Assembly: GCA_001275005.1 (NCBI GenBank)
Contig: JWZX01002747.1
Coordinates: 1-42,888 of the forward strand
Origin: Chrysochromulina tobinii
Lineage: Eukaryota; Haptophyta; Prymnesiales; Chrysochromulinaceae
DNA: 42,888 nucleotides
Direction: 5' to 3'
The notes under the pieces were generated by a model, which worked only from the letters and a program-made list of their open reading frames with translations, had not been told where the DNA came from and searched no databases. Within the stretch, counting starts at the first letter, position 1, and every line of letters begins with the position of its first letter. Of this stretch, positions 2,121-29,200 are shown piece after piece. Position numbers and translations under genes: made by a program.

Positions 2121-2216
2121 GACTCATTTCTCGAGCCGAGACAAAAACGGAAGACACGTAACACTGCAGTCTATTTATAGCTTCCTTTTTTTTCGTTCTG
2201 CCGCTGCGGAAAGTGG

Positions 2217-5072
2217 ATGCGCTTAGGCCTTCGGCGGGGCTGGATGTTCTGGTTCACGAGTCCGCCCAACAAAGAGCTCTCCCACAATTCAGTCTCAGCA
2301 TCTCAGCATAATCCAGCTCATATGCGGCTCCAGGTGATGTGCGGCGGCTACCAGAAGAATCTCAAAAGTGAGGACCGCTTCATTACTCATACTGCAAGCC
2401 TCGCAGGGGACCGCTGCTACTTCATGCTGGTCGCGGATGGGCATGGTGGGAAGGATGCGGCACAATTGGCAGCGCAGCGGATCCTGCCGCTCATCGCCCA
2501 GGAGGCAGGGAACGGCAGCGGCGCCGAGCTGAACAGGGCGTGTGTCAAAAGCTTCCGCACGCTGCACGAGGAGATCTGCGCGTCCGGCACGACCGCGGGC
2601 TCGACGCTCACCGTGTGCTGCATCAACGCGTCGCGGCAAGAGCTGCACGTTTGGAACGTCGGCGACTCTCTCGCAGTGCTCGTCGACGCCGACGGCCACG
2701 CGCCCCTCGGCGTGAGCCATCGGCTCGGGATCAATCCAGATGAGCAGTCGCGGCTGCAAGCACTCGGCGTCAAGCTTGGCCGCGCGATGACAGAAGAGGG
2801 CAAAGAGGGCGGGCCGCTGCGCGCCTGGCCCGGCGGCCTGGCCGTCACCCGCGCCATCGGCGACGCCGACTGCATGAGCTACGTCATCCCCGCGCCTGTG
2901 TGGTCCAAATGTCCAGTGCCGCCCAAGGGCGGTGCGCTGCTCGCGTGCACTGATGGCGTATGGGACCTCATGTCTGCGGACGAGGCGGCGACGATACTAC
3001 TCAAGGGCGAGTACGACGCGGCGCGCGACGCGGCGCGCCAGGTCGTGCGAAAGGCAGTGAGCCGCGGCCTGGTCGATGACACGACCGCTGCGGTCATGCT
3101 TTTCGGCCCCGTGCTCGAAGACGATGACGAAGACGATGGCACTCTGGCGACCAGACCCGCGGCCATCCCGGAGTCTCAGACGCCTCCTCGGCCCGCCCGA
3201 GCGAAGAGTGGGGAGCTGACGATCCAGGTCCAAGACCTGACCTCTGCCCCTGCCCCCGCCGCCACCACGAGCCAAGCGGCGGTGCGCCGAGCGCCTCCGA
3301 CGTCGTCGTCGGTTCGTCAAGTTTCGTCGGTTCGGCGCATCCGAAAGCTCAGTGGGGATATCCTCTTCGACTTACCCCCCAAAGAGGACGACAAGGACGA
3401 CTCCGACGAGTTCCTCCTGAGCACCGATCGAGCCCTCATATCCCCATCCACGCAGAATCCCCTCGGCAGCCAGAACGCAAAGCTCGAGCTCCACCAGGCG
3501 CCCCAGTCGGTGCGCGCCTCGATCGATGCAGGCCCGAGCTCAGAGGCGGGGTCGTCGCTTGATCAGCGGCTCGAGGCGCGGAGGCTCTCGGATCAGCTCT
3601 TGGAGCTGTCGGACTCCATCCGACGAAACTCTGACGAACCCCAACGAGCCATCCGACGAAACTCTGACGAAGCCCAACGAGCCCCGGTGCCGTTGCGTGG
3701 GCCCGGCCTCGCGGGCTCTCTGGCCCCGAGCGCTCGTATTAGTCCTGCGACCAGCGAGGAGATGACGAGTGCCGCGGCCCAGGGCTCGGAGACGCCCAGC
3801 AGGCAGCACAGAGGCTCCACAAGCCTGGGCAACTCCCCTGCTTCCTCGCGCGCAAGCAACACCGATCGCAACTCACTGCGTCTCTCGACCATCTTCGACT
3901 CTTTCGTGCGCGATGCACCTAAGGCTCCCGGGACGACGCCACCGTGGGCGGGCAGCACGACCGGCCGAAGATCCCTCAACACGATCGATCGCTTCGGCAT
4001 CCTCACCTTGGACGCCGCAAACCCTGCTCGCGAAGCCGGGACGCCGCTGCCAGGGGGGGCTTGGTCACCGCGACGAGAGCCAAACGTCGACAACCATCAC
4101 GGGTCGGACTTGCAGGAGTTTACCCGCTGGCGCCGCAAGTATACCGCCGATGGGGACGCGGGCACCCGGGTAGTCGACTTTTCGAAGCTCACCATCAGCA
4201 GGTACTTGGGTGAAGGCGAGTTTGCGATGGCGCATCAGACGACCCTCGACGAGCGCCCCGCGGCGATCAAGATGCTCAAGAAGGAGAAGCGCGAGATCCC
4301 CTCTGCCGTGGAGGGTCTCAAGCGCGAGATCATGATGATGACGCTGATGGACCACCCGAATGTGCTCAAGGCGTACGCGCTCGGCCAGCACGAGGGCATC
4401 CCACTCATGATCGTCGAGCTGCTCAGCCGCACGCTCCCCTCGCAGTTGCCGCGTAACCCGGACACGGTCCCCTTTTGGGTGCGATGGCGCGAAGTCAAGC
4501 GCTGGCCGCTCTCGCGCAGCCTGCACTGCGCGGTGCAGCTCGCGCGCGCCCTCAAGTACTGCCACGACGACGCGTTCCCGGGCTACCGCGTCCTGCACCG
4601 TGACGTGAAGCCCAACAACATCGGCTTCATCCACGACCCTGAGGACCCCGACCATCTCGTCCTCTTTGACTTTGGGCTCGCCAAGCTGTGGGGAATCAAG
4701 AACGATCCGAGCGACACCCTCGCCCGCAACCTGACGGGTGAGACGGGCTCGCTTCGTTACATGGCGCCCGAGGTGGCCAACTCGAGGCCGTACTGCCCGA
4801 AGGCGGAGGTCTTCTCGTTCGCCACCGTCACGTACGAGATCGCTTCCTGCGAGAAGCCCTTCTCGAGCATGCTGCCCGACCAGTTTCGCCGGGCGATCGG
4901 CAAGGGCTACGTGCCAGAGATCCCGCGCAAGTGGCCGGCCGAGCTGCAGTCCCTGATCTCCGAGTGCTGGAAACTGGACGCGCAGCAGCGGCCCGAGTTC
5001 CGCGAGATCGTGCCTCGCCTCGAGGCGCTCTGTGCCGAGCACCCGCAGAAACCTCTTCAAAGAGCCGCCTGA
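2217..5072 (+). CDS. PP2C phosphatase-protein kinase fusion
   Basis: A single 951-residue exon encodes two opposing enzymes. Residues about 40-300 form a PP2C Ser/Thr phosphatase with its metal-binding acidic residues in place: SEDRF, D74-GHGG, CTDGVWD and DDTTA, plus VTRAIGDADC. A long Ser/Pro-rich linker (about 300-650) follows. It contains acidic runs and an 11-residue tandem duplication of IRRNSDEPQRA. Residues about 655-935 form a protein kinase with a glycine loop GEGEFA (from G665), ATP lysine K685 in AAIKMLKK, catalytic HRDVKPNN (D796), D818-FG and APE; all look intact. It resembles the tyrosine-kinase-like/RAF group loosely. PP2C-kinase fusions are known in algae and protists. A TATTTATA-like element lies at 2171-2180. 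An alternative start is the ATG of MRLQVMCGG. The neighbour at 5916 carries a related PP2C domain. Confidence 0.9.
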   Translation: MRLGLRRGWMFWFTSPPNKELSHNSVSASQHNPAHMRLQVMCGGYQKNLKSEDRFITHTASLAGDRCYFMLVADGHGGKDAAQLAAQRILPLIAQEAGNGSGAELNRACVKSFRTLHEEICASGTTAGSTLTVCCINASRQELHVWNVGDSLAVLVDADGHAPLGVSHRLGINPDEQSRLQALGVKLGRAMTEEGKEGGPLRAWPGGLAVTRAIGDADCMSYVIPAPVWSKCPVPPKGGALLACTDGVWDLMSADEAATILLKGEYDAARDAARQVVRKAVSRGLVDDTTAAVMLFGPVLEDDDEDDGTLATRPAAIPESQTPPRPARAKSGELTIQVQDLTSAPAPAATTSQAAVRRAPPTSSSVRQVSSVRRIRKLSGDILFDLPPKEDDKDDSDEFLLSTDRALISPSTQNPLGSQNAKLELHQAPQSVRASIDAGPSSEAGSSLDQRLEARRLSDQLLELSDSIRRNSDEPQRAIRRNSDEAQRAPVPLRGPGLAGSLAPSARISPATSEEMTSAAAQGSETPSRQHRGSTSLGNSPASSRASNTDRNSLRLSTIFDSFVRDAPKAPGTTPPWAGSTTGRRSLNTIDRFGILTLDAANPAREAGTPLPGGAWSPRREPNVDNHHGSDLQEFTRWRRKYTADGDAGTRVVDFSKLTISRYLGEGEFAMAHQTTLDERPAAIKMLKKEKREIPSAVEGLKREIMMMTLMDHPNVLKAYALGQHEGIPLMIVELLSRTLPSQLPRNPDTVPFWVRWREVKRWPLSRSLHCAVQLARALKYCHDDAFPGYRVLHRDVKPNNIGFIHDPEDPDHLVLFDFGLAKLWGIKNDPSDTLARNLTGETGSLRYMAPEVANSRPYCPKAEVFSFATVTYEIASCEKPFSSMLPDQFRRAIGKGYVPEIPRKWPAELQSLISECWKLDAQQRPEFREIVPRLEALCAEHPQKPLQRAA
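3618..3683 (+). repeat. 33-bp in-frame tandem duplication in the kinase-phosphatase linker
   Basis: Two adjacent 33-bp units (3618-3650 and 3651-3683) differ at one base, so the protein gains a second copy of IRRNSDE(P/A)QRA. Each copy holds an RRNS site, the type basophilic kinases phosphorylate. Confidence 0.9.
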
Positions 5073-5915
5073 GAAATACCTCGGGAGTAAGAACTCTCCA
5101 AAATGGCGAATGCTCGGCAGGTCGCTCCGCACCCGCTCAGTTGCCTAATTAGGTCGCTCATCTGCCTGATTCGTCGGCACTCCGGTCCTGTCATCTGGGG
5201 TAGGGGGTTTGCCGTCGGTTCTCGTTCGCGTTCGCCGTGCTCTCGGCCGCTGGTCTTGGTCGTGATGTATCTTCTGTGCGCGCGTGCTCACGCACTTCTC
5301 GTGGTGCGCTGTTCGCTCGTTGAATGATGCCTTGCTCAAAGGACCAGGAAATGGCTACAGCGTACCGGGGAATGGGCACGGCCGCCCCCTTCTTCTGAAA
5401 GTTGGGTATCCTGAGGTAGGAAAGGGGCAAAGAGGCTTTGTCACGCTGCGAAAACATTAGGCGGAGTGAGTGCGGAGGGACCGCGACGAAACTGACCGAC
5501 TGGCTGTCTGAAACATAGGCCCACCCTTTGTGTTGACCGAGGGGAGCGGAGCCGTCCGTCGAGACGGTGGTGGAGTGAGCGTGGTAGGGGTGTGCTGGGA
5601 GAGCCCGACCTCACTAGCGAAATTGAGTAGCCCGAGCGAGCGAGTACTCTGTACTTGTGTTGACCGAGGGGAGCGGAGCCGTCCTTTGAGACGGCGGTGG
5701 AGTGAGCGTGGGGGGACCGCGAAGAAACTGAACTGAACTGAACTGAGCGTGGTAGGACCGCGAAGAAACTGAAACTGAAACTGAACTGGCCGGCGTCTCG
5801 ACGCTTTTATTACGGGTCGTACCGTTGCAGGGTGGATTCCACTGATGATTCCGAAACTAGGGTGGTCTCGACAACCGCGCAGTTTGCGGTGGGGAACAAC
5901 ACGTTGTAGCGCCAG
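5073..5915. other. intergenic region with a dispersed 55-bp repeat
   Basis: No coding frame is convincing here. A 55-bp element occurs at 5530-5584 and again at 5657-5711 (127 bp apart) with few differences. It is followed by short CTGAA-type repeats around 5725-5790. The function is unknown; it probably includes the 3' end of the kinase gene and the promoter of the gene at 5916. Confidence 0.6.
5530..5711. repeat. two copies of a 55-bp direct repeat
   Basis: Both copies start GTGTTGACCGAGGGGAGCGG and end in GTGAGCGTGG. They are separated by 72 bp of unrelated sequence. Confidence 0.8.
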
Positions 5916-8835
5916 ATGCCACTCGACGCACCTCGCCGTGGACAACCTCGCGACGAATCGCTCGAGTCGTCGGAGGTTGCATTCGAGGGCAAGGAGTCGT
6001 CGACGACAGATCAGTCGCTGATAAGCTCATCTTCCTCCTCCTTTTTCGATTCATCCGAGAACGTGACGTTGTCTGCGGGCTTGCAGGCGCTGGACCTTCA
6101 TGAGGCTCCCCCGTTGCTCATTGCCACCAGAATCGGCTCGCACACGGCGAGCCACAAGGGAGAGGACGGCTTGCGCGTCAGGCGCCTCGTCATTGGCGGA
6201 GACGTCGTACTGTGTGCAGTTCTCGCGGACGGGCATGGAGGCCATGAAGCAGCCTTGTTCGTGGTGGATCATCTCATCGAGTTCCTCGGCGAGGAGAGCC
6301 ATAACGACGCGAGCGCCCACGGGCTCTCGCAGGCCTCGGAGCGCGCCTTTGCCCGGCTGCACGCGCTGCTGCTCGCAGACGACCGGCACACGGCCGGCAC
6401 CACGGCGACCCTGTGCCTGCTCAACGAGACGCGCGGAGAGATCACGACGGCGCACGTGGGTGACTCAGCCGCTCTCCTCGTGAGCGCCAATATGGCAAAG
6501 ACGTACGAGCACGCCGCGATCCCCGACGCCGCGACTCCCCTCGCCACGAGCCCCCTCACCTCCGAGCACTGCCTCGTCGACAGCGTCGATGAGCGTCGTC
6601 GCGTGAGCGCGTTGGGCGCCAAGCTTGGGCATCTACACGGGCGGTTGCGCGCCTTCCCTGGCGGTGTTCACTGCGCCCGAGCGATCGGCGACCGCGACTG
6701 CAGAGCGTTCGTGAGCCCTGTGCCGGACATCAAGGTGATGCCTGTTCCGGAGGGGTCTGCGGTCGTGCTCATGGCGAGTGACGGGGTTTGGAGCGCTCTC
6801 CGGCGCGAGAAGGTCGTCAAGCTGGCGCTCACGGCAAATGACGAGAACCAGGCCGCCGAACAGATCGTGGCCAAGGCGATGCGTGCGAATGGTCGCCGCG
6901 ACGTGACGTGCGTCTTCCTCTTCGTCCAAAGGCTCGCCGCGCGGGAGGCGAGCTCCGCCGGCAAGCTCGCGTCGCGCTCGTGCTCGCGAGACATTGCACT
7001 GCTGCGGCCCTTCCCCAAGGCTTCTAGCTCTGCTGAGATCAGACATACAGCGACAGCGACAGCGAAAGCCCAGAATTCGGAACTCGCGGCACTCCTCGCG
7101 GCAGCCGCGGCGCGACGAGATCCCTCTGATTGGCCACCGGATCGTCTGCAGGTGCCCCTGCCACCGCCGAGCATGCCGCCGAGGTGGACCCTACCAGACG
7201 AGCTCGTCCAGAACGTGGCATTCCACCTTTGCCGCCTGTCTGGCAAGGTCGGCCGCACGCTGATGCGCAGCATCTGCCGGAGCTGGTATGCCGCCATCTC
7301 CGCGGTCGACGACGAGTTGTGGAAGCTCCTTTGCTGCCAGCGGTACCCCTTTCTTCCAGACGTAATCCATAGCTGGCCCTCCGACGAGCCGTGCTCCTCC
7401 TTTCAGGACTGGCGTGAGCTGTACCGTGCCCAGATGCACAGCCACGCAGTCGCAAGCGCCAAGGCGCTCCCACTCTCTCCCAGGTCCTCCTTTCGCATCA
7501 CAGTCGAGGTTTGGAGTCCTTTCGTCCGCTTATGCACAGAGCGCGCCGAGGACGCGGAACGCCTCGGCACCTGTGTGCTCGAAGTTCGGTACATCTGGGC
7601 AGGGGACGTTCGATCCGCCATCCTCGAGCCTGTCGAGCTCCAAAAGCGTGACACGGCGCTCCAGTCTGTGCCCTGCTGTAGCGATGGTGACGGGGCGCAG
7701 CTCTTGGCCAACCGGACCAGAGGTGTTGCACAAGCTCCCTTCTCGTCGAAGTACGAGCAGGCTGCTTCGATGATCCGAGTGCTCTGCACACGGGACTCGG
7801 GCGCCACGATCGTGCTCTACACTGCACCAGCGGACCTCGACGAGGCGAGGCGCTTACCGGTCCGGTCGGAGCTCGTGACACGCGCGGGGCTCTCAGCCGC
7901 CTATTCGGAGCACTTCGCGCTCGGCCTCCAATTCGGCGTCGTTTCGGCGGACGCCGTGGGCTCCGCTTCGCATCCGCTTCTTCGCTGGCCACAATCAAGG
8001 GCGCTGGCTTGCCGAGGAGCGTTGCGTACTCACGTACCTGGAGCACTTTGCACCGTGGAAGGAGGCTGGCCTCTGCTCCTACCAGGATGCTTGCGTGCAC
8101 GTGTCCACAGTGGCCGAGCTCCACTCGATGTTTGGGGGCGTTTGGAACTATTCGCGGTCCTGGCGGCGGCACTGCGGCACTGCCGTGGTGCCGAAAGCTC
8201 GCAGCTCCAGCTTTGTGATCTCCGTGGAGCTCCGAGACATCTCGCAACATCTCGCTGGAGCTCCATCGCTCGAGATCAGCCGAGATGCATCGCCAGGGAA
8301 GCCTCTGCGCGGAGATGTACCCGAGATCAGTACCCGAGAGGTGCCCGGTGGACTGTCGTTGTTACCCGCCCAAGCACGTTGGGTCGGCGTTCTGACGAGG
8401 AACGTCGAGGACGAGCCTCCCCAAATCCGGCTCTGGGAGGGAGTGGCGCCCGACTGGGTCCACTTTACGGACGATGGGGCGAACGTGGTCACCGTCTACG
8501 TGACCCGCGGGGATGGCTGCACGCTCCGAATCTTCGAACAGCGGCTGGAGCTCTTCGATGATGACCGGGCCGAGGGGATCGACGATGTCCGAAAGGTCCT
8601 CTCGGCTGCCAGTACCCTGCCCACCTGCCCTCTCTTGTCCACCTGGCTTGGCATCGCCGATTCCAGATTGGACAAATGTTCTTTCTCAGAGACGTTTGAC
8701 ATGCACGTTCTGCTCACCCACGATGGACTCGTCGAACTCTCTTGGGGCCACTGCCATGAGCATGACCAGGGCGCCGATGCATCCGACAGTAATACCATCT
8801 ACCTCGACTTATTCGCGCCCTGGCCAGATCGGTAG
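5916..8835 (+). CDS. PP2C phosphatase-F-box fusion protein
   Basis: The N-terminal part is a PP2C phosphatase: HKGEDG, ADGHGG (D105), HVGDSAALLV, CARAIGDRDC, ASDGVWS and a terminal RRDVTC in place of the usual D(N/D)xT. The key acidic residues are kept, so activity is plausible. An F-box-like segment starts near residue 426 (LPDELVQNVAFHL...LWKLLCCQRYP) and is followed by FQDWRELY, the usual post-F-box pattern for recruiting an SCF ubiquitin ligase. The reading frame changes between about 7930 and 7990. The first frame ends as Arg-rich nonsense, while another frame (RFFAGHNQGRWLAEERC...) continues sensibly to a stop at 8833-8835. I could not decide between a short intron and a one-base frameshift. 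The phosphatase shares the GAKLG...RLRAFPGG pattern with the PP2C of the preceding gene, so the two probably arose by local duplication. Confidence 0.75.
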
Positions 8836-10670: not shown

Positions 10671-10694
10671 TCACGACCAGAGCTCCTGCATCAG
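10607..10694 (-). repeat. duplicated stop-codon region of the CYP51 fusion gene
   Basis: The last 24 nt of the coding sequence, stop included (10671-10694), are repeated exactly 64 bp downstream at 10607-10630, in the likely 3' UTR. The flanking GGCGCCCACCACGGCGC sequence is shared too, so this is a tandem duplication that overlaps the gene terminus. Confidence 0.85.
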
Positions 10695-13600
10695 ACGCCC
10701 CTGCTCCTGCATACGCTTCACATAGTCCGCGGCTGCAGCGGCGCTCATCCGCCCATGCGTCGCGATCGCCTCGGTGAGCGCACCAACCACATCACGACCC
10801 ATGGAAGTACCGCCGCAGATGTAAAAGTGCGCGTGGCGCTCGAGCAGACCCCACAGCTCGGCACCGTCCTCCTTGACACGATGCTGCACGTACACCTTCT
10901 TCTCTTGCGCGCGCGAGAAGGCGACGCGGAGGCTCGTGAGTGTGCCCTTGCTCAGATGCCCTTGGAGCTCCTCCTCGTACAGGTAGTCCTCATCTGGGCG
11001 CCGGCAGCCAAAGCAGAGGCAGTTAGAGGCAAGTAGAGGCAAGTAGAGGCAAGTACAGGCAATTAGAGGCAAGTACAGGCAAGTACAGGCAATTAGAGGC
11101 AAGTACAGGCAATTAGAGGCAAGTACAGGCAATTAGAGGCAATTAGAGGCAAGTACAGGCAATTAGAGGCAATTAGAGGCAATTGGAGGCAATTGGAGGC
11201 AATTAGACGTACCTGGGCGCCGGCAGCCAAAGTAGAGTCGCACGGGCCCCGTGCGCACCGGTGCGCCCGATGCGCCGAGCTGCCGAAGGAACGCTCGGAA
11301 CGGCGCGATGCCCGTGCCCGGGCCGACCATGATGATGGGCGCGTCGGGCGATGCAGGCAATTCGAAGCCCGACGGTCGTACGAAGACGCACGCGGAGGCG
11401 CCTGGCGCGAGCACGGCGAGCTGCGTCGAGCATACGCCCTCCTTGGTGCGTCCCTCGGCTCCGCGCATCGGCTCGCGCAGCACCTTGACGGTCAGGTGCA
11501 CCCGGTTCGGGTCCGAGACGGGCGAGGACGAGATCGTGTAGTAGCGCGGCGTGAGCTTCGGCGCGAGCTCGAGCAGACTCGCCCACGACGGCGCGCACGA
11601 CTGGAACTCGCGCAGCAGTTCTGCGAGCCCTCGCCCGTCGCGATGCACCCAGTCGTGGTACGCCTGCTTGCCCGCCGGCGACGCGAGATGGCACAGCCTC
11701 GCCGCCTCAGCCGAGTCAGAGCACGCCTCGGACATGAAGAGCAGCGCCGACTTGCTCGGCGGAGCGCGCAGGTCCGCGTGAAACCGAAGCGCTTGCTCGA
11801 CCGTGCACGGCGTGGGCAGCGGCGGTGGCACGTGGCTTCCCGCGGCCGGCTTGGCCACGAGCACGAAGCACGCGCTGAGGGAGAGGCCAAGGCGCGTCGC
11901 CACCTGCGTCGCGAAGGCGGCACGCGAGAGCGCTGTGATGAGCACTTGCATGCAAGGCAGGTCATCATCAGTGGCAATCCACGTACCAAGAGCGTTGTGG
12001 TGGGCACTTGCATGCAAGGCAGGTCATCATCAGTGGCAATCCACGTACCAAGAGCGTTGTGGTGGGCACTTGCATGCAAGGCAGGTCATCATCAGTGGCA
12101 ATCCACGTACCAAGAGCGTTGTGGTGGGCACTTGCATGCAAGGCAGGTCATCATCAGTGGCAATCCACGTACCAAGAGCGTTGTGGTGGGCACTTGCATG
12201 CAAGGCAGGTCATCATCAGTGGCAATCCACGTACCAAGAGCGTTGTGGTGGGCACTTGCATGCACGGCAGGTCATCATCAGTGGCAATCCACGTACCTGT
12301 GTCGCGAGCGCGACGCCGTTGTCGGGACACACAGCGAGGTCGTCGGCCATCTTGTACGCAGCACTGCCAACGCCCATCGCGCCCGTCTCCAACTCGAGAT
12401 GACGCACCGAGCCGCACTCGGGCTTGGCAGCCAGCTCACGGTTGACCGCGACGGTGCACTCGCACAGCGTGTGCTTCGGCTGCGTGCGCGCGAGGAACTG
12501 GAGCGTCGTCGGCGCCGCCTCGGCCGTCGCGAGCCACTCAACGTCAAAATTGGGCGCGGGCGCCCGGGACAGCGCGGGAGGAGCGGCTCCGCCCGCTCCG
12601 CCCGCGACGGCGCCCGCCGTACTGGGCAGTAGGGCTGCCCAGAGCGTTTCGCGCCACTTCTCGAAGTCGCCCTCGAGGTCATCGTCGTCGTCGCCGAGCC
12701 CCAGAGGGCAGATGCGCATGCCGCCGAGGGCCGCCACCTTGGCGTCGACCCACTTGCCCATCGCACAAAAGTGCTGGTACTGCTTGTTGCCGAGCGCAAA
12801 GGCGCCAAAGCGGACCGCCTTCAGGTTGGTCCCCATCTGCTCGTTCTCGATGTATTTATAAAACGCGACGGCATTGTCGGTCGGCTCTCCCTCGCCGTGC
12901 GTCGCCATCAGGAAGATGACCGGTGCCTCGTCCTCCTCAGCCAGCTGCGCCGCGTTGTACTCTTCGAGGTCGATCGAGCGCGCGTCGAAGCCCCGTTGAC
13001 GCGCCTCGTCGCGCAGGATCTTGCCGAAGCTCTCGGCGGTGCCCGTCTGACTTCCCCACAGGATGAGCATCGGCCCGTTGGGGTACGCCGCGTTGGTGAC
13101 GGACTTGACGAGCGACACGCCGCCGCCCGACGATGCGACCGGTGGGGGGGCACCGCCCGCGGCCGCGGCCAGCGCGGCCGCCTTGGCCGCTGTGGCCGTG
13201 GCCGCGTACTTGGCCGCGCGCTCGGCCATGTCGGTGGCCGTGAGGAACTTTTTGCGCTTGTAGCGCATCATGATCGGCGCATCGGGGCCGACCACCATGT
13301 CGTTGTACGCGGGTTTGGGCAGCGGCGTCACCATCTCGAGCTCGAAATCTCGGAGCAAGATCGACCAGATCGTCGAGACCTGCAGGTAGCCGAAGCGCCG
13401 TCCCGAGCACATGTGCGCGCCGCCGCCGAAGGAGAGCATGAAGCCCTGTGGGGAGGTGGGGGCGCCCTAGTGAGCGCTTGCATGCTGGGGCCAGATCGGC
13501 CAGGTGGGGGCGCCGTAGTGAGCACTTGCATGCTGGGACCAGATCGGCCAGGTGGGGGCGCCGTAGTGAGCGCTTGCATGCTGGGGCCAGATCGGCCATC

Positions 13601-16600
13601 TTCGCACGCACCTGCATCAGACCGTGCCCGACGGTGCGCGAGTCAAACATGAGCTCATTCTCAGCGCCTGTCAGATAACGCTCCGGACGAAACTCGGTGG
13701 CATCGGGCCAGTAGCGCGGGTCCAAGTTGGACGCCGGCGCACAGAGCCCGACCACGTCGCCCTTGGGGATCGTATGCTCGCCTACCTTGAAGCCGTCCAC
13801 CATCACCTGGCGCATGCGCAAGAGGAGAGGCGAGGAGAGGCCATCAGAGGTGATCGAGGGTCCATCAGAGCCGATCGAGGGTCCATCAGAGGCAATCGAG
13901 AGTCCATCGTAGGCGAATCAAGGGGCCATCAGAGGCCCATCAAGGGCACTCACCTGGCGCATGAGCAAGATGAGAGGCGTCCAAATGAGGGAGGCAATCA
14001 GCATGCAATCCGAGATGGCACTCACCTGGCGCATGAGCAAGATCAGAGGCGTCCAAATGAGGGAGGCAATCAGCATGCAATCCGAGATGGCGCTCACCTG
14101 GCGCATGAGCAGGATCAGAGGCGGGTAGAGCCGCAATGTCTCGGTGATTGCCCGGCGCATCGCGTCCATCTCGAGCAGGTTCGCATAGTTGAGCGACGAC
14201 GCATCGGGCACGAGCCGCTCCTGCTCGGCACGCACCTCCGCCATAGCTTTCGGATTCGAAAGCAGCAGCGCGCCGAGCCACGTGCTCGTGATGGAGCTGG
14301 TGTGCTGTCCCGCGAAGAGAAGCACGATCAGCTGGCCGGTCACCTGATGCGCGAGGCCACTCGTGCTCAGGCGCGCTCAGGCGCACTCAGGTGCGCTTAG
14401 GCGCACTCAAGCACACTCAGGCGCGCTCCAGGGCAGGGCAGCACGGCGACCAGATGAGCACACCTCTGCATCGGTGAACCCACGCCCCTCCTTGCCGTTG
14501 TTGTTGTAACGGAACTCGATGATCTTTTGGAGAAAGTCGCCGGAGCTGACCGCACCCGAGCGCCGGTTGGCGATGATCTTGGCAAAGATGTCCACCATCT
14601 CCTTGCGCGCCTCGTCGCGCTCCTTGTGCTTCTGCGTGGGCGCGCCCGGCCACAAGGTCGAGAGCGGGGTGAGGCCGCCGTCGAGCGAATGGTAGATGCG
14701 CGCAATCTCGGCCGAGAGATTCTCGCGGATCTCGGGGCCCATGAGGCACGACGAGGCGGTCATGATGATGAGCTCCGAGAAGACCTTCCGGATCTCGACT
14801 TCGCCCTCGTTGCCCCACTCGCGGAAGTACCTAAAGAGGGAAGCGAGGCCGTCAAAAGGTCATCGGAGCCAATCAAGGGTCCATCAGAGCCAATCAAGGG
14901 ACCATCAGAGGCAGTGCTTACTCCTCGGCCTCGTCGATCATCTTTGGCACCATCGCCTCGAGTCCCTTTGTGTTCATCGAGTGCACCAGCAGCTTCACCT
15001 GCGATGGAAGACGCCATCAAGCGAGGACATCAAGCGAGGACATCAAGCGAGGACATCAAGCGGCACTCCTCAGGCGGCACTCAAGAGGCACTCAAGAGGC
15101 GATCCAGAGGCACTCCAGGAGGCACTCAAGGAGGCACTCCATGAGGCACTCAAGGAGGCACTCCAGGGGCACTCACCTGCTGCTGGCGCTCCTCGAGAGG
15201 CGAGTCGTAGATGATGCCCTCACCGAAGACCGGGATCGTGAACCCGTAGACCGGGGCCTGGTCGAGCACCTCGTCCTTGGCCTTGATGAACTGCAGCTGG
15301 GGTCCCGCTCCAATCATAAAAGTGATACGCTGCGGCCCGACGCGGATGGTGAACATGGAGCGGTATTGGCTGCGCAGGTTGTCGATCATTCCCACAGGCC
15401 CCTTGACGAAATCGAGCAGGTGGCCGAGGAGAGGCACCCCCCCCGCGACCAGGGGCGGCGCTATCGGAGGCTGCGCGGGCAACTCCGTCGGGGGAGGCAG
15501 CAGCGCATACAACGCACCGAGCAAGCCGGCGGCGCCCGCGACGGCGCTCAGGTTCGTCAGGCCCACGGCGTCGGCGAAGAGGGCGACGGCGGCTGCCTCG
15601 AGGGGCACGACGAGACGAAGGGTGACCCCCGCGCGCTCGCGGACGGCAAGGAGGGCCGCATGCAATCCCTTCGCAGCCGCCTTGGGCGTGAACCCGAGCA
15701 CATCGTGAGCCTTCTGCGCCGTGTAGTACGAGTGGACTTGCGCATAGTGACGCCAAGAGGGATGGAAGTCTGCTGCCGCGCCGGAGGCGAGGGCCGCCAC
15801 GGCGCCGTAGAGCGCAGCGAGCAGCCCAAACACGCCCGCGACGACGCTCCCGAGCACCTTGGCAATCGGGGTGAGCGCCGTCCCGAGCACCTCGGCCGCT
15901 CCGCTGTTGAGCAGCACGCGTACGATGCGCACGAGGGAGGCCTCGACGAGGCGCCCCACCAGCTTCAACGGCGGGCCGACGAGCATCGCGACGGCCGCCA
16001 TGAAGAGAGCGATCACCGGCGCGACAAGGGGCGCGAGCGGCGAGGGCACACGCAGCACACACGCAAGGCAGCGGAGGAGATGGCTCACTTCCCACACCGA
16101 CGGGTCCGTCAGAACGATAATCTCGAACGCGGAGCTCGGCGCCGTCGCGAGCGCGGGCAGCAGCACGCCCGAGCCCGCTCCCGAGTTGGCCACCGCACCC
16201 GATTTGGAAGAGAGCGACGTGGGCAAGTTGGGCACGCTACCGGCCTTCGAGGCAAGCAGACGATCGGCGCCCAGGACGACGCCGTAAGCGGCATCTTCGG
16301 CATGCAGCAGGTTGGTCTGGGCGCGCTCGAAGCCGCACGCGAGGCCCGCGCCGCACGCGAGCAGCGCCGGCACGCCCGCCGGCAGCTGCGCCGCTGTCGG
16401 CGAGTAGACCCGATGCAGCCGCAGCACGATCGCGCCCAGCACGGCGCCCCGCCCAGCCTGGTGCCTCTCGAGCGCGGCCTCCGCATTCTTCAGGTCGAGC
16501 AGCCGGGCGGTGGGCGTCGGCGGCGGGCGCGGCTCCGGCGAGATCAGGGAGAGCCCCGGGTCGCTCAGCTCATCGCCGTCGCACACGTCGCCCAAGCAGT

Positions 16601-17105
16601 CATAGCCAACCAACGCGTCGGAGCACTGGATGATGGCTGGCACGCCGTGGGTCGCGCAGGCGCGGACGAAATAGCCCGTAGCCGCGGCCGCCTTGGACAC
16701 GGGCGCCTCGATGGCCAGGTCGATGCCCAGGTTCGCGCCACGGCACCCCTCCACCAGCTCGGCCGGCTTGGTCGCGCACCGCACCTCGCTGAAGCCGCGC
16801 TCGAGGAGGAGGCGGCGGATATGCTTGACGAGCGCTGACTCGGGGAGCGCCGATCCGGTGTGAATCAAGGCCACGCGGCCTCGGCAAGCGCCCGTGGACT
16901 CCACCGAGATCAGCGGCACCTCCTTTGCGGGCGCTTTCGGCTTGCGGCAGCGCACCCACGAAACAACGAGGCAGAGCAGCGCGAGGACAAGGCACCCAAT
17001 GGCCGCCTGCATGCACTGCTCAGTCGTCAAGTGGAGGCGGTCGTGGAGCGTCGCCGGCGGTGGTGGTGGTGGCGGCGGTGGCGGCGGGGGCCGGCGCCCG
17101 AACAT
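10671..17105 (-). CDS. SDR-like/CYP51/NADPH-P450 reductase fusion
   Basis: I assemble eight exons: 17105-15177, 14998-14922, 14830-14464, 14343-14098, 13806-13612, 13445-12297, 11903-11213 and 10993-10671. They total 4,977 nt, an exact multiple of three, giving 1,658 residues. All junctions are GT-AG and each join restores a conserved family motif (DEAEE/YFREWG, DAE/VTGQLIVLLFAGQHTSS, RRP/DEDYLYEEEL). Order: a Pro-rich N-terminus, a membrane anchor (about 33-52), an NSDHL/3-beta-HSD-like domain (about 66-485), CYP51 (about 550-1005), an Ala-rich linker, then a complete P450 reductase (about 1063-1658). The expected reaction is oxidative removal of the sterol 14-alpha methyl group at the endoplasmic reticulum, with electrons from NADPH through FAD and FMN in the same chain. 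The gene is head-to-head with an F-box fragment near 17333. The multi-domain reading frame is seen; the activity is inferred. Confidence 0.85.
10994..11212 (-). repeat. CYP51-fusion intron 7: 10-bp satellite between 20-nt exon copies
   Basis: The intron (219 nt, GTACGT...CCCAG) is mostly about 19 copies of a 10-bp unit (plus strand AATTAGAGGC / AAGTACAGGC) at 11021-11207. The last 20 nt of exon 7 (CTTTGGCTGCCGGCGCCCAG, plus-strand 11213-11232) are repeated without a mismatch as the last 20 nt of the intron (10994-11013). The splice site is thus duplicated: one copy serves as donor edge, the other as acceptor. Confidence 0.9.
11904..12296 (-). repeat. CYP51-fusion intron 6: 62-bp tandem array
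   Basis: Six near-identical units of 62 bp start at 11943, 12005, 12067, 12129, 12191 and 12253. In sense orientation every unit contains the donor sequence GTACGTGG that opens the intron, and the palindrome TTGCATGCAA. The acceptor at 11904 (TTCGCGACGCAG) mimics the end of exon 6 (CTCGCGACACAG). There are no unique spacers, so it is a minisatellite, not a CRISPR array. Confidence 0.92.
13446..13611 (-). repeat. CYP51-fusion intron 5: 48-bp tandem repeat, three copies
   Basis: Units begin at 13471, 13519 and 13567 (period 48) and share TGAGCGCTTGCATGCTGGGG. The intron lies between GATGCAG|GTGCGT (13612/13611) and CCACAG|GGCTTC (13446/13445). Confidence 0.85.
13807..14097 (-). repeat. CYP51-fusion intron 4: 72-bp repeat that duplicates the splice donor
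   Basis: The end of exon 4 plus the first part of the intron is repeated with a period of 72 bp. Three potential donors (CGCCAG|GTGAG) result, with exon ends at 14098, 14026 and 13954. Because 72 is a multiple of three and no stop intervenes, using donors 2 or 3 would add 24 or 48 residues, each ending in LILLMRQ. The acceptor side (GCGCATGCGCCAG) is again a copy of the exon end. Confidence 0.85.
14831..14921 (-). repeat. CYP51-fusion intron 2 with degenerate short repeats
   Basis: The intron reads GTAAGC...TTTAG. Inside it, units of about 22 nt (sense strand, of the type TGATGGWCCCTTGATTGGCTC) recur, ending in a Thr/Pro-poor pyrimidine tract before the acceptor. Confidence 0.6.
14999..15176 (-). 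repeat. CYP51-fusion intron 1 with short sense-strand repeats
   Basis: The intron opens GTGAGTGCC and carries runs of GAGTGCCTC-type units, then four to five GATGTCCTCGCTT units, before TCGCAG|GTGAAG. Splicing joins EERQQQ to VKLLVHSMN in phase 0. Confidence 0.7.
15620..16910 (-). other. degenerate NSDHL/3-beta-HSD-like domain of the fusion
   Basis: Residues about 66-485 follow the layout of sterol C4-decarboxylase/3-beta-hydroxysteroid dehydrogenases: a beta-alpha start (VALIHTG), a central ATGYFVRACATHGVPAIIQCSD with the expected serine, the LRLHRVYSP strand, and a C-terminal YYTAQKAHDVLGFTPKAAAKG matching the family's LGYxP ending. However, the usual glycine-rich NAD(P) motif is replaced by GSALPES. 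At the YxxxK site the lysine (about K206) is preceded by leucine (about L202) where tyrosine belongs. This suggests a non-catalytic, perhaps scaffolding or membrane-anchoring, domain. Hydrophobic stretches at about 345-445 would add membrane association. Residue matches are by eye. Confidence 0.6.
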
Positions 17106-23136: not shown

Positions 23137-23252
23137 ACCTATGTGCGCAATGAAATGGAAGGGCGTGCCTCTCGCGAACCTACCTTGATCTGCAGTGAAG
23201 GGGTTGGAGATCTGTGGAGTCTGTGAAGAGTGCGTGAAGCGTGAACGTTAAG

Positions 23253-26200
23253 ATGACGAAGACCCGACCGCGCGTTCTGTCCCTGCGTCACAAGCGGGCT
23301 TCTTCGAACTTCCCTTGTCGCATGCAACGCCCACTTCCAGTTGGACTTTTTGAGCGCACCCGCTCCCTTTTGGTGCGGCCCCTCCTCACCGGCTGCGGCC
23401 CCTCCTCACCGGCCGTAACCCCGATGGTGCGGCGCGGCGCGGGTCGCATCACGGCTCAAGACATCACGCGCATGGGTGGCGAGGGTGGCGTGCCTACGGT
23501 CGTGGCCATGCTCGTCAAAACGGCCACGACCGGCGACCAGGAGGCCCGGGAGAGCGCAGCCGTCGCCCTGTGCAGCCTGGCTGGACAGAACCACTTTGAA
23601 CATTGTCAGGTTGTGTACGAGGCGGGAGCCGTGGGACCGCTGGTGAGTATTTTGGCCACCGGCACCAGCAAGGCGCAGGGCGCAGCCGCGGGTGCTCTCC
23701 ACGCGCTCTGTACCGACAAGCCCGAGATCCAATCGGCGATCGTTGCGGCAGGCGCGATCGTGCCGCTCGTGAAGCTGCTCAAGTCGGGCGGCTCGAAAGT
23801 GCAGGAGGCGGCGGCCTCCGCGCTCGCCGCGCTGAACGCCGAGCCGTCCTACCAGAAGCCTATGCTCGCCGCGGGCTGCATACAGCCGCTGGTCGCGATG
23901 CTGATCAACTCGTCAGCGGCGGCGCAAGCGTTTGCGTCGCAGGCGCTCGCGAACGCCGCCCAGTACGACGCTGTCGAAGGGCAGGCGGCGATCGTGAAGG
24001 CGGGCGCGATCCCGCTGCTCCTACAGCTCCTTAGCGTGGGCAAGGCACAGACGCCCGCCGCGGATGCCATCGCGCACCTGTGCGAACGCAATCGCGAGAT
24101 CCAGCTGAGAGTGGCTCAAGCTGGTGGTATCGCTCCTCTGCTGATGCTCCTCAATTTGCGCAGCAAGGACTCGCAGGTGGCCGCGGCGGCCGCGCTCGCC
24201 GAGCTCGCGCGCGACAATGTCGAGACGCAGACGCTCATCGCCAAGGCGGGCGGCATTGGGCCGTTGCAGGCGTTGCTCAGCTCGCGATACCCGATGGTCC
24301 AATCGAAGGTGGCAGGATTGATGATTGCATGCTGAGTGCCGATGGTCCAATCGAAGGTGGCAGGATTGATGAGTGCATGCTGAGTGCCGATGGTCCAATC
24401 GAAGGTGCTGGCAGGATTGATGAGTGCATGCTGAGTGCATGCTGAGTGCGTGCTGAGAGTGCGTGCTGAGAGTGCGTGCTGAGAGTGCGTACTGATTGCA
24501 TGTTGATTGCGTGCTGACGGTCACCTCCGATGGTCGATCGTAGGGGAGCGCCGCCTTGGGCGAGCTCGCGCGCAACAACAAGGAGATCCAGGACGCGATC
24601 TCGCGCATGGGCGGGCTCAAGCTGCTCGTCCAGCTGCTCGACACCGAGAAGAATCCCGATGCGGACGTCCAAGCGCATGTTGCGCACGCGATGATGGAGA
24701 TCACGTGCGGCAACCCGGCGAACCAAAAGGCGGTCGTCCAGATGGGTGGGGTCTTGCACCTCTCGTCCCTGATGAAGCTGTCGCAGAGCGGGCCCGTGAA
24801 GGCAGAGGTCGCGGGGGCGCTCTGGTCCCTGTCCGAGGCCACCGACATCAAGGTCGCCATCGCGGACGCGTCGACCATCGGGCCACTCGTGATGCTGCTC
24901 GGGATGGGGCATGCCTTCTCGTCCAAGCGCGCGGCCGCAGCCCTCGGCTCCCTCGGGCGCGACAACGAGGCGAACCAGATCCAAGTGACGCAGATGCTCA
25001 TCGAGCTGCTCTCCACCGGATCCGAAGCGGCGCAGCAGCGAGCGGCCCAGGCGCTGTGGAGCCTCGTCAAGGAAAACCCGAGCGCGCACGACGCGATTGC
25101 TCGGGCGGGCGATCCGGCGGCCTTGGTCGAGCTGCTCATCAAAGGCATCCCCGACGCACAGGACTATGCGCTCTGGTCTCTCTCTCTCTCCATCTCGCCT
25201 GCGTGCCAGGCGGTGGTCGCCCAGTCCGGCGGCGTGGCCAAGCTCATCGACAAGCTCGCAGATCTCCGCGTGGAGATACAGCAGCAGGCCGCCGATGCGC
25301 TGTCCAAGCTCGCGCTCAATAACGAGGAGACCCGAGCGGCGATCACGAAGCAGGGAGGAGTGCTACCCCTCATCAACCTCATACGACCAGATCGCCGACC
25401 ACCCTCGCCTGAGGTGGTGCTCGAGAACGCCGCCAAGGCCCTCGCGGACCTCGCCATCGATCCGGGAGCTCGCGACAAGATTGTGTCGGCCGGCGGCATC
25501 CCGCCGCTTGTGGTCTTGCTGCAGGAGCGACGAGTGCCCCTTGATGGCGACCTGAGTGTGCCCTGATGGCCTCAATCATCAGCTGAGCGCCGCTCGTGCT
25601 CTTGCTGCACAGGAGCACGGGAGTGTAGCCAAGCGCTTCGCGGCCACCGCCCTGGCACGTCTCTCAACAGACCATGAGGCGACGCAGCTCGCTATTGCCG
25701 AGGCGGGCGCCATTGCTCCCCTTGTGCTACTCCTCGATGGTTCTGAAGGAACCGAAGCGCAGACCGAGTCCGCGGGCGCACTCCATGCCCTCGCGTCAAA
25801 CGAGCACAACCGGCTCGCCATCACCGAATGTGACGGCATCGGGTTGATCACGAACGTGCTCGCGTGCGACAACGAGCGCGCACGCAAGCTCGCCGAAGGT
25901 GCGCTCGTGCGACTCTCGATCGAGCATGCAAACCGCGCGCTCATCATCAAGAAGCTCGTCGAGATGCTCCAGAACCCCGATGCGCTCCTAGGGCAAGAGC
26001 AGGCATGCTGAGTACCTACCCCAGAGTACCTACCCCAGAGTACTCTGCCCCGTGAGTACCTACCCCGGAGAGAGTAGTTCCCCTGGGGACCCCGGAAAGG
26101 CTCTAATGGCATCCGAGTGCCCTTCTCTCGCGTGCAGTCGGCGGCGGCCCTGTCCAATTTGGCGCGCGAGTCGGAGGGCAATCGCAACTGCATCATCGAG

Positions 26201-29200
26201 GCGAATGGCATCCCGCCACTGCTAGCTCTCCTCGACTCGCACAATCCAAGGTCACTTGCAGGCTGATTGCGCCAGAGTGCATGCTGATTGCCTCCCTCGT
26301 CCGCCGCTGCTCGCTCTCCTTGACTCGCACAACCCACAGGTCAAAGCAGAGCTCGGTGCTCGACCACGACAACCCACGACCGCATGCAAGTAATCATTTG
26401 GCGCCACCCCACCCCTTCCCACAGGTCAAAGGAGAACTCGGTGCTTGCGATCACGGAGCTATGCCGCAAGAGTAAACCCAACCAGACCGCCTTCTCCGAA
26501 GCGGGGGGCATCCCCAAGCTCGTGTCTGTCCTCCTCGGGTTCAGTCCAGGGGGCACCAAGGACTACTCCTTCATACGCCTATGTACACTCGTGGCGGAGG
26601 CCATCAAGGAGATGGCCAAGGGCAATCAGGCGAACCAGGATGCGATCGCCGAAGCGGGGGCCATCCCGCCAATCGTGGCTATGCTCGGCTCGACCGAGCC
26701 GCAGATGCAATCCAACGCCGCGGCGGCGATCGCCAGCCTCGCGCGCACTCACTTTGAGAATCAGGGCATGGTCGCGCGCACGGGCGCGGTGGCTCCGCTC
26801 TGCACCCTCGTGCGCGATGGCTCTGACGAGGCTCGTGATCGGAGTGCGAGCGCGATCTGGTCGCTCGCGACTGACCACCCCTTCAATAAGGATACGATCG
26901 CCAAGCTGGGCGGCATTGACCCTCTCCTTGGTCTGCTCGTTACGGGCACCTCGGACAAGTCGCAGGAGTGCGTCACAGGCGCTCTGAGTGCAGGGCCCCT
27001 CTGAGTGCATGGTGATGGACTCTGAGTGCACGTCGATTGTCCTCCCTCATCAGATGCGTCTCCGGCGCCCTCTGCGCTCTATCCGCAAAGCATGTCGACA
27101 ATCGCGCCCTCATCTCAAAGCGTCTAGTTGGGCTCCTCGGCTCTCCGGCGGCCAAGGCTGCGGACCGAGCCGTGCGTGTGCTCATGACGTGCGGCGCCTT
27201 CGCCTCCGACAGCTACGCCAACCAGGTCCGCTCGCATAGATCGGCCGCATCCCCTTGGTCGAATCGCAACAGAGATTGACCGCATCCAAGTACCCTCGAC
27301 TGATGCTGATTGCGTCTGAGTACCCTCAATTGCATGCTGATTGCGTCTGAGTGCATGCTGATTGCCTCACCCCTCAGGTGGCGCTCGCTAAGATCGGTGG
27401 TATCCCCTTACTTGTCCAATGGCTCGCGGGCCCGGCGATCAACGTGCAGGCGCAGGCAGCTCAAGCGCTTCTGTGCACAGTGATCGAGAACCCGATGACC
27501 CAGGTCCTAGTGGCCAAATGCCAGGGGATTGCGCCGCTCATCAAGCTCATTCAGCGGAGCTCGCCCCAAGCTCAGGACTGTGCGGCGCGCGCGATGTTCC
27601 ACATCGCCTCCATCGTCGACAACCAGACCCTGATTGCCGACGCGGGGGCTATCAAGCCCTTCGTCCAGATGATCATCGGGAATGAGAAGCTGACGCCGAA
27701 GGAGAACGAGGCTCCCCAGGAGCTTGCGGCCATCAACCTCGTGCGCCTCACGCGCGGAACGCCCGCGATCTCGGAGGCCATCGCCGAGCGCGGCGGCATC
27801 AAGCCCCTCGTGAGGCTGCTCAACGAGGGTTCTCCCGGCGCCATCTACTGGGCCTGCGCTTGCCTCGCCGAGCTTGCCCTGGTGCCCAAGAATCGAGATC
27901 TGATCGCCGCGGCGGGGGGCATCAAGCGGCTGAGCGAGCTGCTGATCTCGCCGGCGATGGGCACGCCCGAGATTGCAGCTCGCACGATCTCGCACCTCGT
28001 GATCGCCGACCATGAGGGCGCCGCTCGTCACGACGCCGAGGAGTCGAGCACTCATCGCGGCGCCGAGTCGGGCGCCAGCAGCTTGGTCGGTGGCTCCGAT
28101 GAGCGCAGGAAGATGTTCCACGAAGAGAAGGGGACGAAGCGGCTCATCTCGATGCTCGATGGCTCCAACCTGCACGGCCTTCAGTGTTTCATGATCCGTC
28201 CTATCGGGCTTGCATGCGAAAAGTGCGAGATCGGGATGCAAGAGCAAGCGGCCGCCGCACTTGCCGACCTGGCATACAAGAGCTCCGCGATGCAAGACGC
28301 CATCATTGAGCTCGGCGGCATCCCCAGCCTCATCCAGTTCATTCGGCAAATCCCTCCCTCGAAGGTTGGGCAGGAGCATGCGGTGCGTCCTCGGCATGTA
28401 TTCGACCTGCCGCCGCAGATTGAGACCTTGGATTGCGTCTCCGAGAGGGTCTCTGCGTGCCTTGGATTGCTATTGGATTGCGTCTCCGAGAGGGTCTCTG
28501 CGTGCCTTGGATTGCGTCTCCGATAAGGTCTCTGCGTGCCTCGATCGTTGCATGCAGGTGCGCGCCATCCTCAATCTGTCGCAGCAGATTGAGAACCAGA
28601 ATGCCATCGTCGAGTGCTGCACCATCCCTGAGCTTGTGCAGCTCACCAAGACAGGCTCGCAGAAGGCGATGGAGATCGCCGCCGCAGGGCTGTCGGAGCT
28701 AGCGAGTGGGGCAATAGCCGAGCGCGAGAGACACAAGGCGATGGCCCTCGGTATCGATGTGGACTCGTTGAAGCGCTTGGGTAGTGTCGGCTTCTCGGAA
28801 TCTTCCGGTGTGACGCCGAGCATGTCGCACACCGCCGCGTTCCGTGTGCTCGACACGCAGGCAACGGGGAGCATCACGGTCGAGGTGCTCAAGGCGGCGC
28901 TCTTGCCTAAATTGGAAGCCGACGGCTCCGCGTCTAAGGTTTCGCTCAAGGTTTCGTCCGAAGACGTCCAGCAGCTGATCGATGTGGTGGACGAGAACGG
29001 CGACGGCGAGCTGCAGCTCGGTGAGTTTGAGATTTTCTGGAAGAGCTTTCAGGCGAAGCACGGGTTGGAGGTCGAGATAGCCCCCGTCGCAGGCACGAGT
29101 GCCGAGGCGCTTGAGGGAGGGGAGGAGGAGGAGGGTCGAAGCTCGGACCGGCTGGTGCTCATCGCCGAAGCGGGAGGTGCGCGCGCGCGATCGCGATCCA

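Follow-up and report, generated by a model that had tools for sequence, protein, structure and literature searches.

Eukaryotic CYP51 is a housekeeping sterol cytochrome P450 (P450), taught as dependent on a shared, separate cytochrome P450 reductase (CPR). Self-sufficient P450-CPR fusions of the CYP102/CYP505 type are known from other P450 families. The question raised by a locus of the haptophyte Chrysochromulina tobinii is whether a eukaryotic CYP51 can carry a reductase of its own. The stretch analyzed here, hereafter called the window, comprises 42,888 nucleotides of contig JWZX01002747.1 (assembly GCA_001275005.1). In a preliminary description of it, eight exons had been spliced by hand into one 1,658-residue frame joining an NSDHL/3-beta-HSD-like short-chain dehydrogenase/reductase (SDR) part, CYP51 and a complete CPR. 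A self-sufficient eukaryotic sterol demethylase that may recruit the next steps of the pathway had been proposed. The three-part fusion is real, and its domain content suggests that the gene probably encodes one membrane-bound protein working as a self-sufficient sterol 14-alpha-demethylase.

Gene structure and relatives with the same domain order

The gene lies on the minus strand at positions 17105-10671. Rebuilding it from the window gave eight exons and 1,658 codons followed by TGA, with no internal stops, and seven of the seven introns start with GT and end with AG. The junction between the SDR-like part and CYP51 falls within exon 1 (a 681-codon open reading frame, ORF) and that between CYP51 and CPR within exon 6 (a 416-codon ORF). 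Because both junctions lie inside single continuous exons, neither depends on splicing. In the 1,658-residue product, Pfam assigned p450 to residues 556-992 (4.1e-55), Flavodoxin_1 to 1066-1202, FAD_binding_1 to 1264-1481 and NAD_binding_1 to 1513-1620. These ranges agree with the domain order first proposed, and the motifs reported with it (FAGQHTSS, FGGGAHMCSG and a C-terminal ELWS) were all found in the spliced protein.

A search with residues 546-1658 over 5.8 billion proteins, in which 7,983 candidates were scored, returned 21 matches, and the best three of these (P0001, P0002 and P0003) were of the same kind as the window protein. P0001 (1,698 amino acids) is a single ORF on a 5,698-base contig with all three parts present. 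P0002 (1,200 amino acids, from a 28-kb contig) is a single ORF that covers the N-terminal domain, CYP51 and the flavin mononucleotide (FMN) domain and reaches the border of the flavin adenine dinucleotide (FAD) domain, where the frame seems to be lost. In P0003 (923 amino acids) the N-terminal domain is followed by CYP51, after which the sequence ends with no reductase seen. A search with CYP51 only gave 358 matches; among the best 120 listed, P0045 extends into the FAD domain, and two others, P0037 and P0044, extend into the start of the FMN domain. The window protein and P0001 share about 40% identity across the N-terminal domain, 84% across CYP51 and 63% across the reductase core, and the alignment to this unbroken ORF is free of gaps at all seven splice junctions. 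The same order was thereby recovered in P0001 and P0002 without a splicing guess.

An assembly chimera or an error of hand-splicing could in principle produce such a gene. P0034, a 2,293-base JGI metagenome contig in which a piece identical to exon 1 is joined to a dihydroxy-acid dehydratase, is probably an assembly chimera, and it involves exon 1 itself. Against an artefact here stand the in-exon junctions, the matching domain order of P0001 and P0002, and the recurrence of the CYP51-reductase junction in P0037, P0044 and P0045, with both ENA and JGI as sources (P0002 and P0045 are near copies). A chimera or wrong splicing is ruled out by the position of the junctions together with P0001 and P0002, and its remaining probability is negligible.

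The CYP51 domain

The best solved-structure match of the P450 part was Acanthamoeba CYP51 (E 1e-101), and the best PDB matches were CYP51s, not members of CYP102 or CYP505. The line for a P450 family is usually drawn at about 40% identity. The window domain is 39.5-43.8% identical to eight distant CYP51 rows (two named, Guillardia theta and Balamuthia, and six unnamed), which places it in CYP51 at that line. CYP51-typical motifs are Y..F..P.FG...YD in substrate recognition site 1 (SRS1), GQHTSS in SRS4, ExxR and the heme Cys motif. The window protein contains YGFTIPVFGEGIIYD (YGFTIPVFG...YD) at SRS1, GQHTSS within FAGQHTSS, ETLR and FGGGAHMCSG. Among the matches listed, the closest CYP51 with a named source is that of Prymnesium parvum (P0036; transcriptome MMETSP0815, taxid 97485), at 74% identity, compared with no more than 44% for the eight distant rows, which served as outgroup. 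This agrees with a haptophyte source, probably close to Prymnesiales.

The 53-Mb assembly (2,253 contigs) was searched for a stand-alone CYP51, a check that had been suggested with the preliminary description. Close CYP51 matches were exons of the fusion gene only, other P450 matches were 24-33% identical, and a second CYP51 was not found in this assembly by this search. A regular expression for the CYP51-type I-helix gave nothing in 15 P450 loci (several overlapping), a weak result in that other I-helix types were also missed. Sterol-pathway domains were present, with one match to a squalene/oxidosqualene-type cyclase, four to ERG4/ERG24 (three above cut-off) and 15 to FA_hydroxylase, so sterol synthesis in this alga is likely.

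A CYP51-like domain could have moved to another substrate and no longer be a sterol 14-demethylase, given that fused P450s of other families act, for example, on fatty acids. No other CYP51 was found, however, in an assembly that holds further sterol-pathway domains, and the fused domain retains the CYP51-typical SRS1 and GQHTSS stretches described above. A change of substrate is considered improbable, and sterol 14-demethylation is the favored activity. BM3 is described as a fused P450 acting on fatty acids in the abstract of PMC6367340.

The reductase and the linker

The reductase part gave a PDB match to a solved CPR over positions 21-652 of 653 (E 1e-119). It carries FMN (flavodoxin), FAD and NADPH domains in that order, with a Trp near the C-terminus. 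A P450 followed by a CPR in one chain is the anatomy of a self-sufficient P450-CPR fusion, and to this extent the proposal of a self-sufficient eukaryotic sterol demethylase was borne out.

A stand-alone CPR, the second item suggested for checking, exists elsewhere in the assembly (C1678). Its identity to the fused reductase is 55% in a 119-residue stretch and 53% in one of 517 residues, and no CYP51 match was found in the DNA around it. The C1678 protein starts with a hydrophobic segment (by eye); in place of this N-terminal anchor, the fused reductase has an Ala/Lys/Pro/Gly linker. In the sister sequence P0038, Ala makes up 59% of an 85-residue C-terminal tail, and a tail of this sort may have become the CYP51-CPR linker.

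The long frame could be genuine in the DNA and still yield separate products, through internal promoters, alternative splicing or proteolysis. Most introns contain tandem repeats, which leaves some room for this explanation. Weighed against it are P0001, whose 1,698 codons form a single ORF on a short contig as expected from cDNA or an intron-poor gene, and the missing anchor of the fused reductase, which its stand-alone counterpart has. Separate products are regarded as unlikely, and a single transcript encoding the full chain is the preferred reading.

The N-terminal domain

Neither Pfam nor NCBIfam gave an SDR match in the window's own N-terminal sequence. For Pfam 3Beta_HSD there was no match in the window, P0001 or P0002, and P0003 scored 20.6 bits against a cut-off of 22. 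The SDR/NSDHL label is based on this sub-threshold match, on profile-profile comparison and on the predicted fold. The hhalign profile match, obtained with a query from which P0023, P0025, P0026, P0028, P0029 and P0031-P0033 were left out, is colinear into the C-terminal region of NSDHL, including a YYxxxKAxxxLGFxP-like segment. It was compared with 19 distinct column shuffles, a lenient control in that shuffling also breaks local order. A first structure model of the window N-terminus alone (4 sequences) was poor, and a second was therefore made on P0003 with 23 sequences. NSDHL was the top structural match of the predicted N-terminal fold, which belongs to the extended SDR Rossmann folds related to NSDHL. 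A search of PDB sequences with the N-terminal alignment (hmmsearch) gave one chance-like match, and no paralogue of the domain was found elsewhere in the genome at E <= 1.

The residues expected of a working enzyme were then compared across the 16 family members. The S/T-DALVGYD stretch is kept in all 16 (P0022-P0024 and P0026 nearly duplicate other members). A complete glycine motif (GxxGxxG/A) occurs in none of the 13 members with a readable stretch, and the Tyr place of the catalytic YxxxK is occupied by Leu in the window (hhalign). In the stretch after DGDE, Tyr is absent from 12 of the 16 members and lies at least 35 residues downstream in P0001, P0026, P0029 and P0031. Because there is neither a complete glycine motif nor a Tyr at the catalytic place, the SDR-like part is probably a pseudoenzyme related to NSDHL and not an enzyme of the next step. 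The decay of the motifs appears to be graded, since some members retain a residual GGxG or a downstream Tyr or YxxxK.

Several observations weigh against this assignment. The hhalign control consisted of column shuffles alone. The first model had a mean predicted local distance difference test score (pLDDT) of 53 and was poor outside the Rossmann core; the better model (mean pLDDT 80) is that of P0003, not of the window, and the 50 matches listed for it are all P450s. P0003 and P0025 still hold GGxG, a YxxxK occurs further along in P0001 and P0026, and a lone Tyr is found in P0029 and P0031. The YYTETK of NSDHL is placed differently by MAFFT and hhalign, so its position is alignment-dependent, with a Tyr opposite it in neither. 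In addition, the first 85 residues of P0036 do not match the SDR-like domain significantly.

If the N-terminal domain were instead a working C4-decarboxylating 3-beta-hydroxysteroid dehydrogenase, the protein would be trifunctional and catalyze consecutive sterol steps. The NSDHL structural match, the colinear profile, the universal S/T-DALVGYD stretch and the partial glycine motif in P0003 and P0025 would all fit such an activity; the glycine motif that is complete in no readable member and the aligned YxxxK place without Tyr argue against it. So does the presence elsewhere in the assembly of an NSDHL-like SDR with intact motifs (C2234, L014), although its identity as NSDHL is unsure. A working dehydrogenase is judged slightly less probable still than a change of CYP51 substrate. 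The earlier NSDHL/3-beta-HSD-like label thus stood for profile and predicted fold and failed for the glycine motif and catalytic Tyr, and with these the idea of an enzymatic next step lost its support. It is possible that this presumed pseudoenzyme recruits the next pathway steps as a scaffold.

Two further SDR-containing ORFs were noted in the assembly. L014 (G000:C2234), of 685 codons, seems to combine a stretch that by eye is START-like with an NSDHL-like SDR in which the glycine motif and the Tyr/Lys pair are intact. Its best PDB matches were UDP-glucose/galactose 4-epimerases, with NSDHL eleventh, and it was not accepted as NSDHL. L015 (G000:C1856), of 690 codons, encodes a 3Beta_HSD-like domain and, after it, another stretch that looks SDR-like by eye.

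Probable order of the fusions

A midpoint-rooted CYP51 tree was built from 23 rows, leaving out the frame-shifted P0046 and rows with little or no CYP51, including P0030. Fifteen rows, the window and P. parvum among them, formed one group (100/100). Six reductase-fused rows and two rows truncated inside CYP51 or directly behind it formed one clade (100/98), with P0038 next to it (95/94), and seven of the 15 group rows, including P. parvum, end without a reductase. A single gain of the reductase fits if both truncated rows were also fused, and is not forced by the tree alone. The N-terminal domain is present in P0003, outside the fused clade, and in P0030, which is not in the tree. Since it occurs outside the fused clade, the N-terminal fusion probably preceded the addition of the reductase.

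This order is complicated by P0036, in which the N-terminal domain is missing because it was lost, was never present, or the transcript was misassembled. The ends of unfused genomic rows could also conceal an intron instead of a true end. P0036 is a transcript and speaks against a hidden intron for its own lineage only.

Proposed function

In the mechanism proposed here, the N-terminal part would anchor the protein, presumably in the endoplasmic reticulum membrane. Electrons would pass from NADPH to FAD and FMN of the C-terminal reductase and then to the CYP51 heme within one chain, crossing a flexible linker of about 60 residues between reductase and CYP51, and CYP51 would, as expected from its family, strip a sterol of its 14-alpha-methyl group. 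The reductase module probably arose as a copy of the CPR native to this lineage, with loss of the anchor, and would have been joined once to a CYP51 already bearing the NSDHL-like domain. That domain appears to have kept the extended-SDR fold and the S/T-DALVGYD...DGDE stretch, with sterol oxidation most likely gone, and may serve as a membrane anchor or docking part; docking of C4-demethylation enzymes by it is a guess. A private reductase would spare sterol synthesis the competition for a shared CPR. The stand-alone CPR at C1678 could still serve the fused CYP51, a point that counts against self-sufficiency. Taken together, the picture of haptophyte CYP51 as a one-chain module, assembled stepwise from a dead NSDHL docking platform, CYP51 and a private reductase and free of competition for CPR, is offered tentatively and is rather doubtful as a whole.

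Exon layout, introns and other ORFs

Exon 1 (15177..17105, minus strand, as are all exons of the gene) encodes residues 1-643. It contains a Pro-rich start, a hydrophobic anchor (about residues 28-54), the NSDHL-like degenerate SDR domain (about 60-490), hydrophobic stretches (about 492-537), a Pro-rich hinge and the start of CYP51, which is matched from residue 546. The anchor and hydrophobic stretches were called by hydropathy and the SDR-like domain by fold. Exons 2 (14922..14998) and 3 (14464..14830) encode CYP51 sequence that aligns, once spliced, to P0001. Exon 4 (14098..14343) holds the I-helix FAGQHTSS and the K-helix ETLR, and exon 5 (13612..13806) continues CYP51. Exon 6 (12297..13445) spans the heme-ligand region FGGGAHMCSG, the end of CYP51 (about residue 1005), the CYP51-CPR junction with its linker (about 1006-1063), the FMN domain and the start of the FAD domain. 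Exon 7 (11213..11903) encodes the CPR FAD domain and the start of the NADPH domain, and exon 8 (10671..10993) the CPR NADPH domain, the C-terminal ELWS and the TGA stop.

In introns 4, 6 and 7 (13807-14097, 11904-12296 and 10994-11212), the last 20 bases match the last 20 of the preceding exon at 16, 15 and 20 places, respectively. The remaining four introns gave 4-7 matching places, and the maximum among 42 mismatched exon-intron pairs was 12. On this comparison the three introns look like products of intron gain through tandem duplication of an exon piece, a process reported for a potato gene (PMC4974935). Separately, P0022, a relative with 99% identity, has about 26 extra in-frame residues between FMIGA and GPQLQ, within the region of window exon 1; the insert looks like an intron that one of these close relatives has and the other lacks.

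Elsewhere in the window, an ORF at 2181-5066 (plus strand) combines a PP2C phosphatase and a protein kinase domain and is followed by a second PP2C ORF at 5910-8555. Armadillo-repeat ORFs at 23238-24329 and 27351-28520 (plus strand) are probably parts of one large gene, and ORFs of similar appearance continue to about 34745 (by eye).

Comparison with known systems

The preliminary description had named no described case with all three parts, and neither a CYP51-CPR nor an NSDHL-CYP51 fusion was found described in the open-licence PMC literature among the matches listed; the passages of PMC10864609, PMC8172173, PMC9519919 and PMC12190008 that were retrieved mention neither. The nearest parallel within CYP51 is the CYP51-ferredoxin fusion of Methylococcus capsulatus, in which, according to passages of PMC9519919, the CYP51 C-terminus is likewise joined to an electron donor for sterol 14-demethylation. 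There the donor is a ferredoxin that still needs a reductase, whereas the window protein, from a eukaryote, has flavodoxin, FAD and NAD domains forming a full reductase in place of a C-terminal ferredoxin domain, and an extra N-terminal domain. Structures of the bacterial protein (6mcw, 7snm and 7jj1) are among the 50 matches listed for the P0003 model. In the same passages, the bacterial fusion is read as keeping the redox partner close and not as making transfer faster, and the age of such fusions and a fused ancestry of eukaryotic CYP51s are left open.

The P. parvum CYP51 (P0036), with its 74% identical domain, has a Thr/Pro-rich tail where the reductase stands in the window protein. A eukaryotic CYP51-CPR fusion that occurs in nature alongside closely related unfused forms would offer a direct test of what is bought by joining a P450 to its reductase, be it rate, insulation from competition or localisation. 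With NSDHL/ERG26 (sterol-4-alpha-carboxylate 3-dehydrogenase), the N-terminal domain shares the predicted fold and a colinear profile; it differs in the absence of a full glycine motif and catalytic Tyr and in its fusion to CYP51. Retained and apparently broken, it may provide a handle on the physical coupling of sterol enzymes. CYP102 and CYP505 have, as here, a P450 followed by a flavodoxin-FAD-NAD reductase in one chain, but their P450s come from other families. Five other P450-reductase fusions returned by the search with residues 546-1658 (P0004, P0005, P0008, P0014 and P0020) share 25-29% identity with that query across P450 and reductase. Self-sufficient P450s as such are known, and this protein would extend that kind to CYP51 together with a putative pseudo-NSDHL domain.

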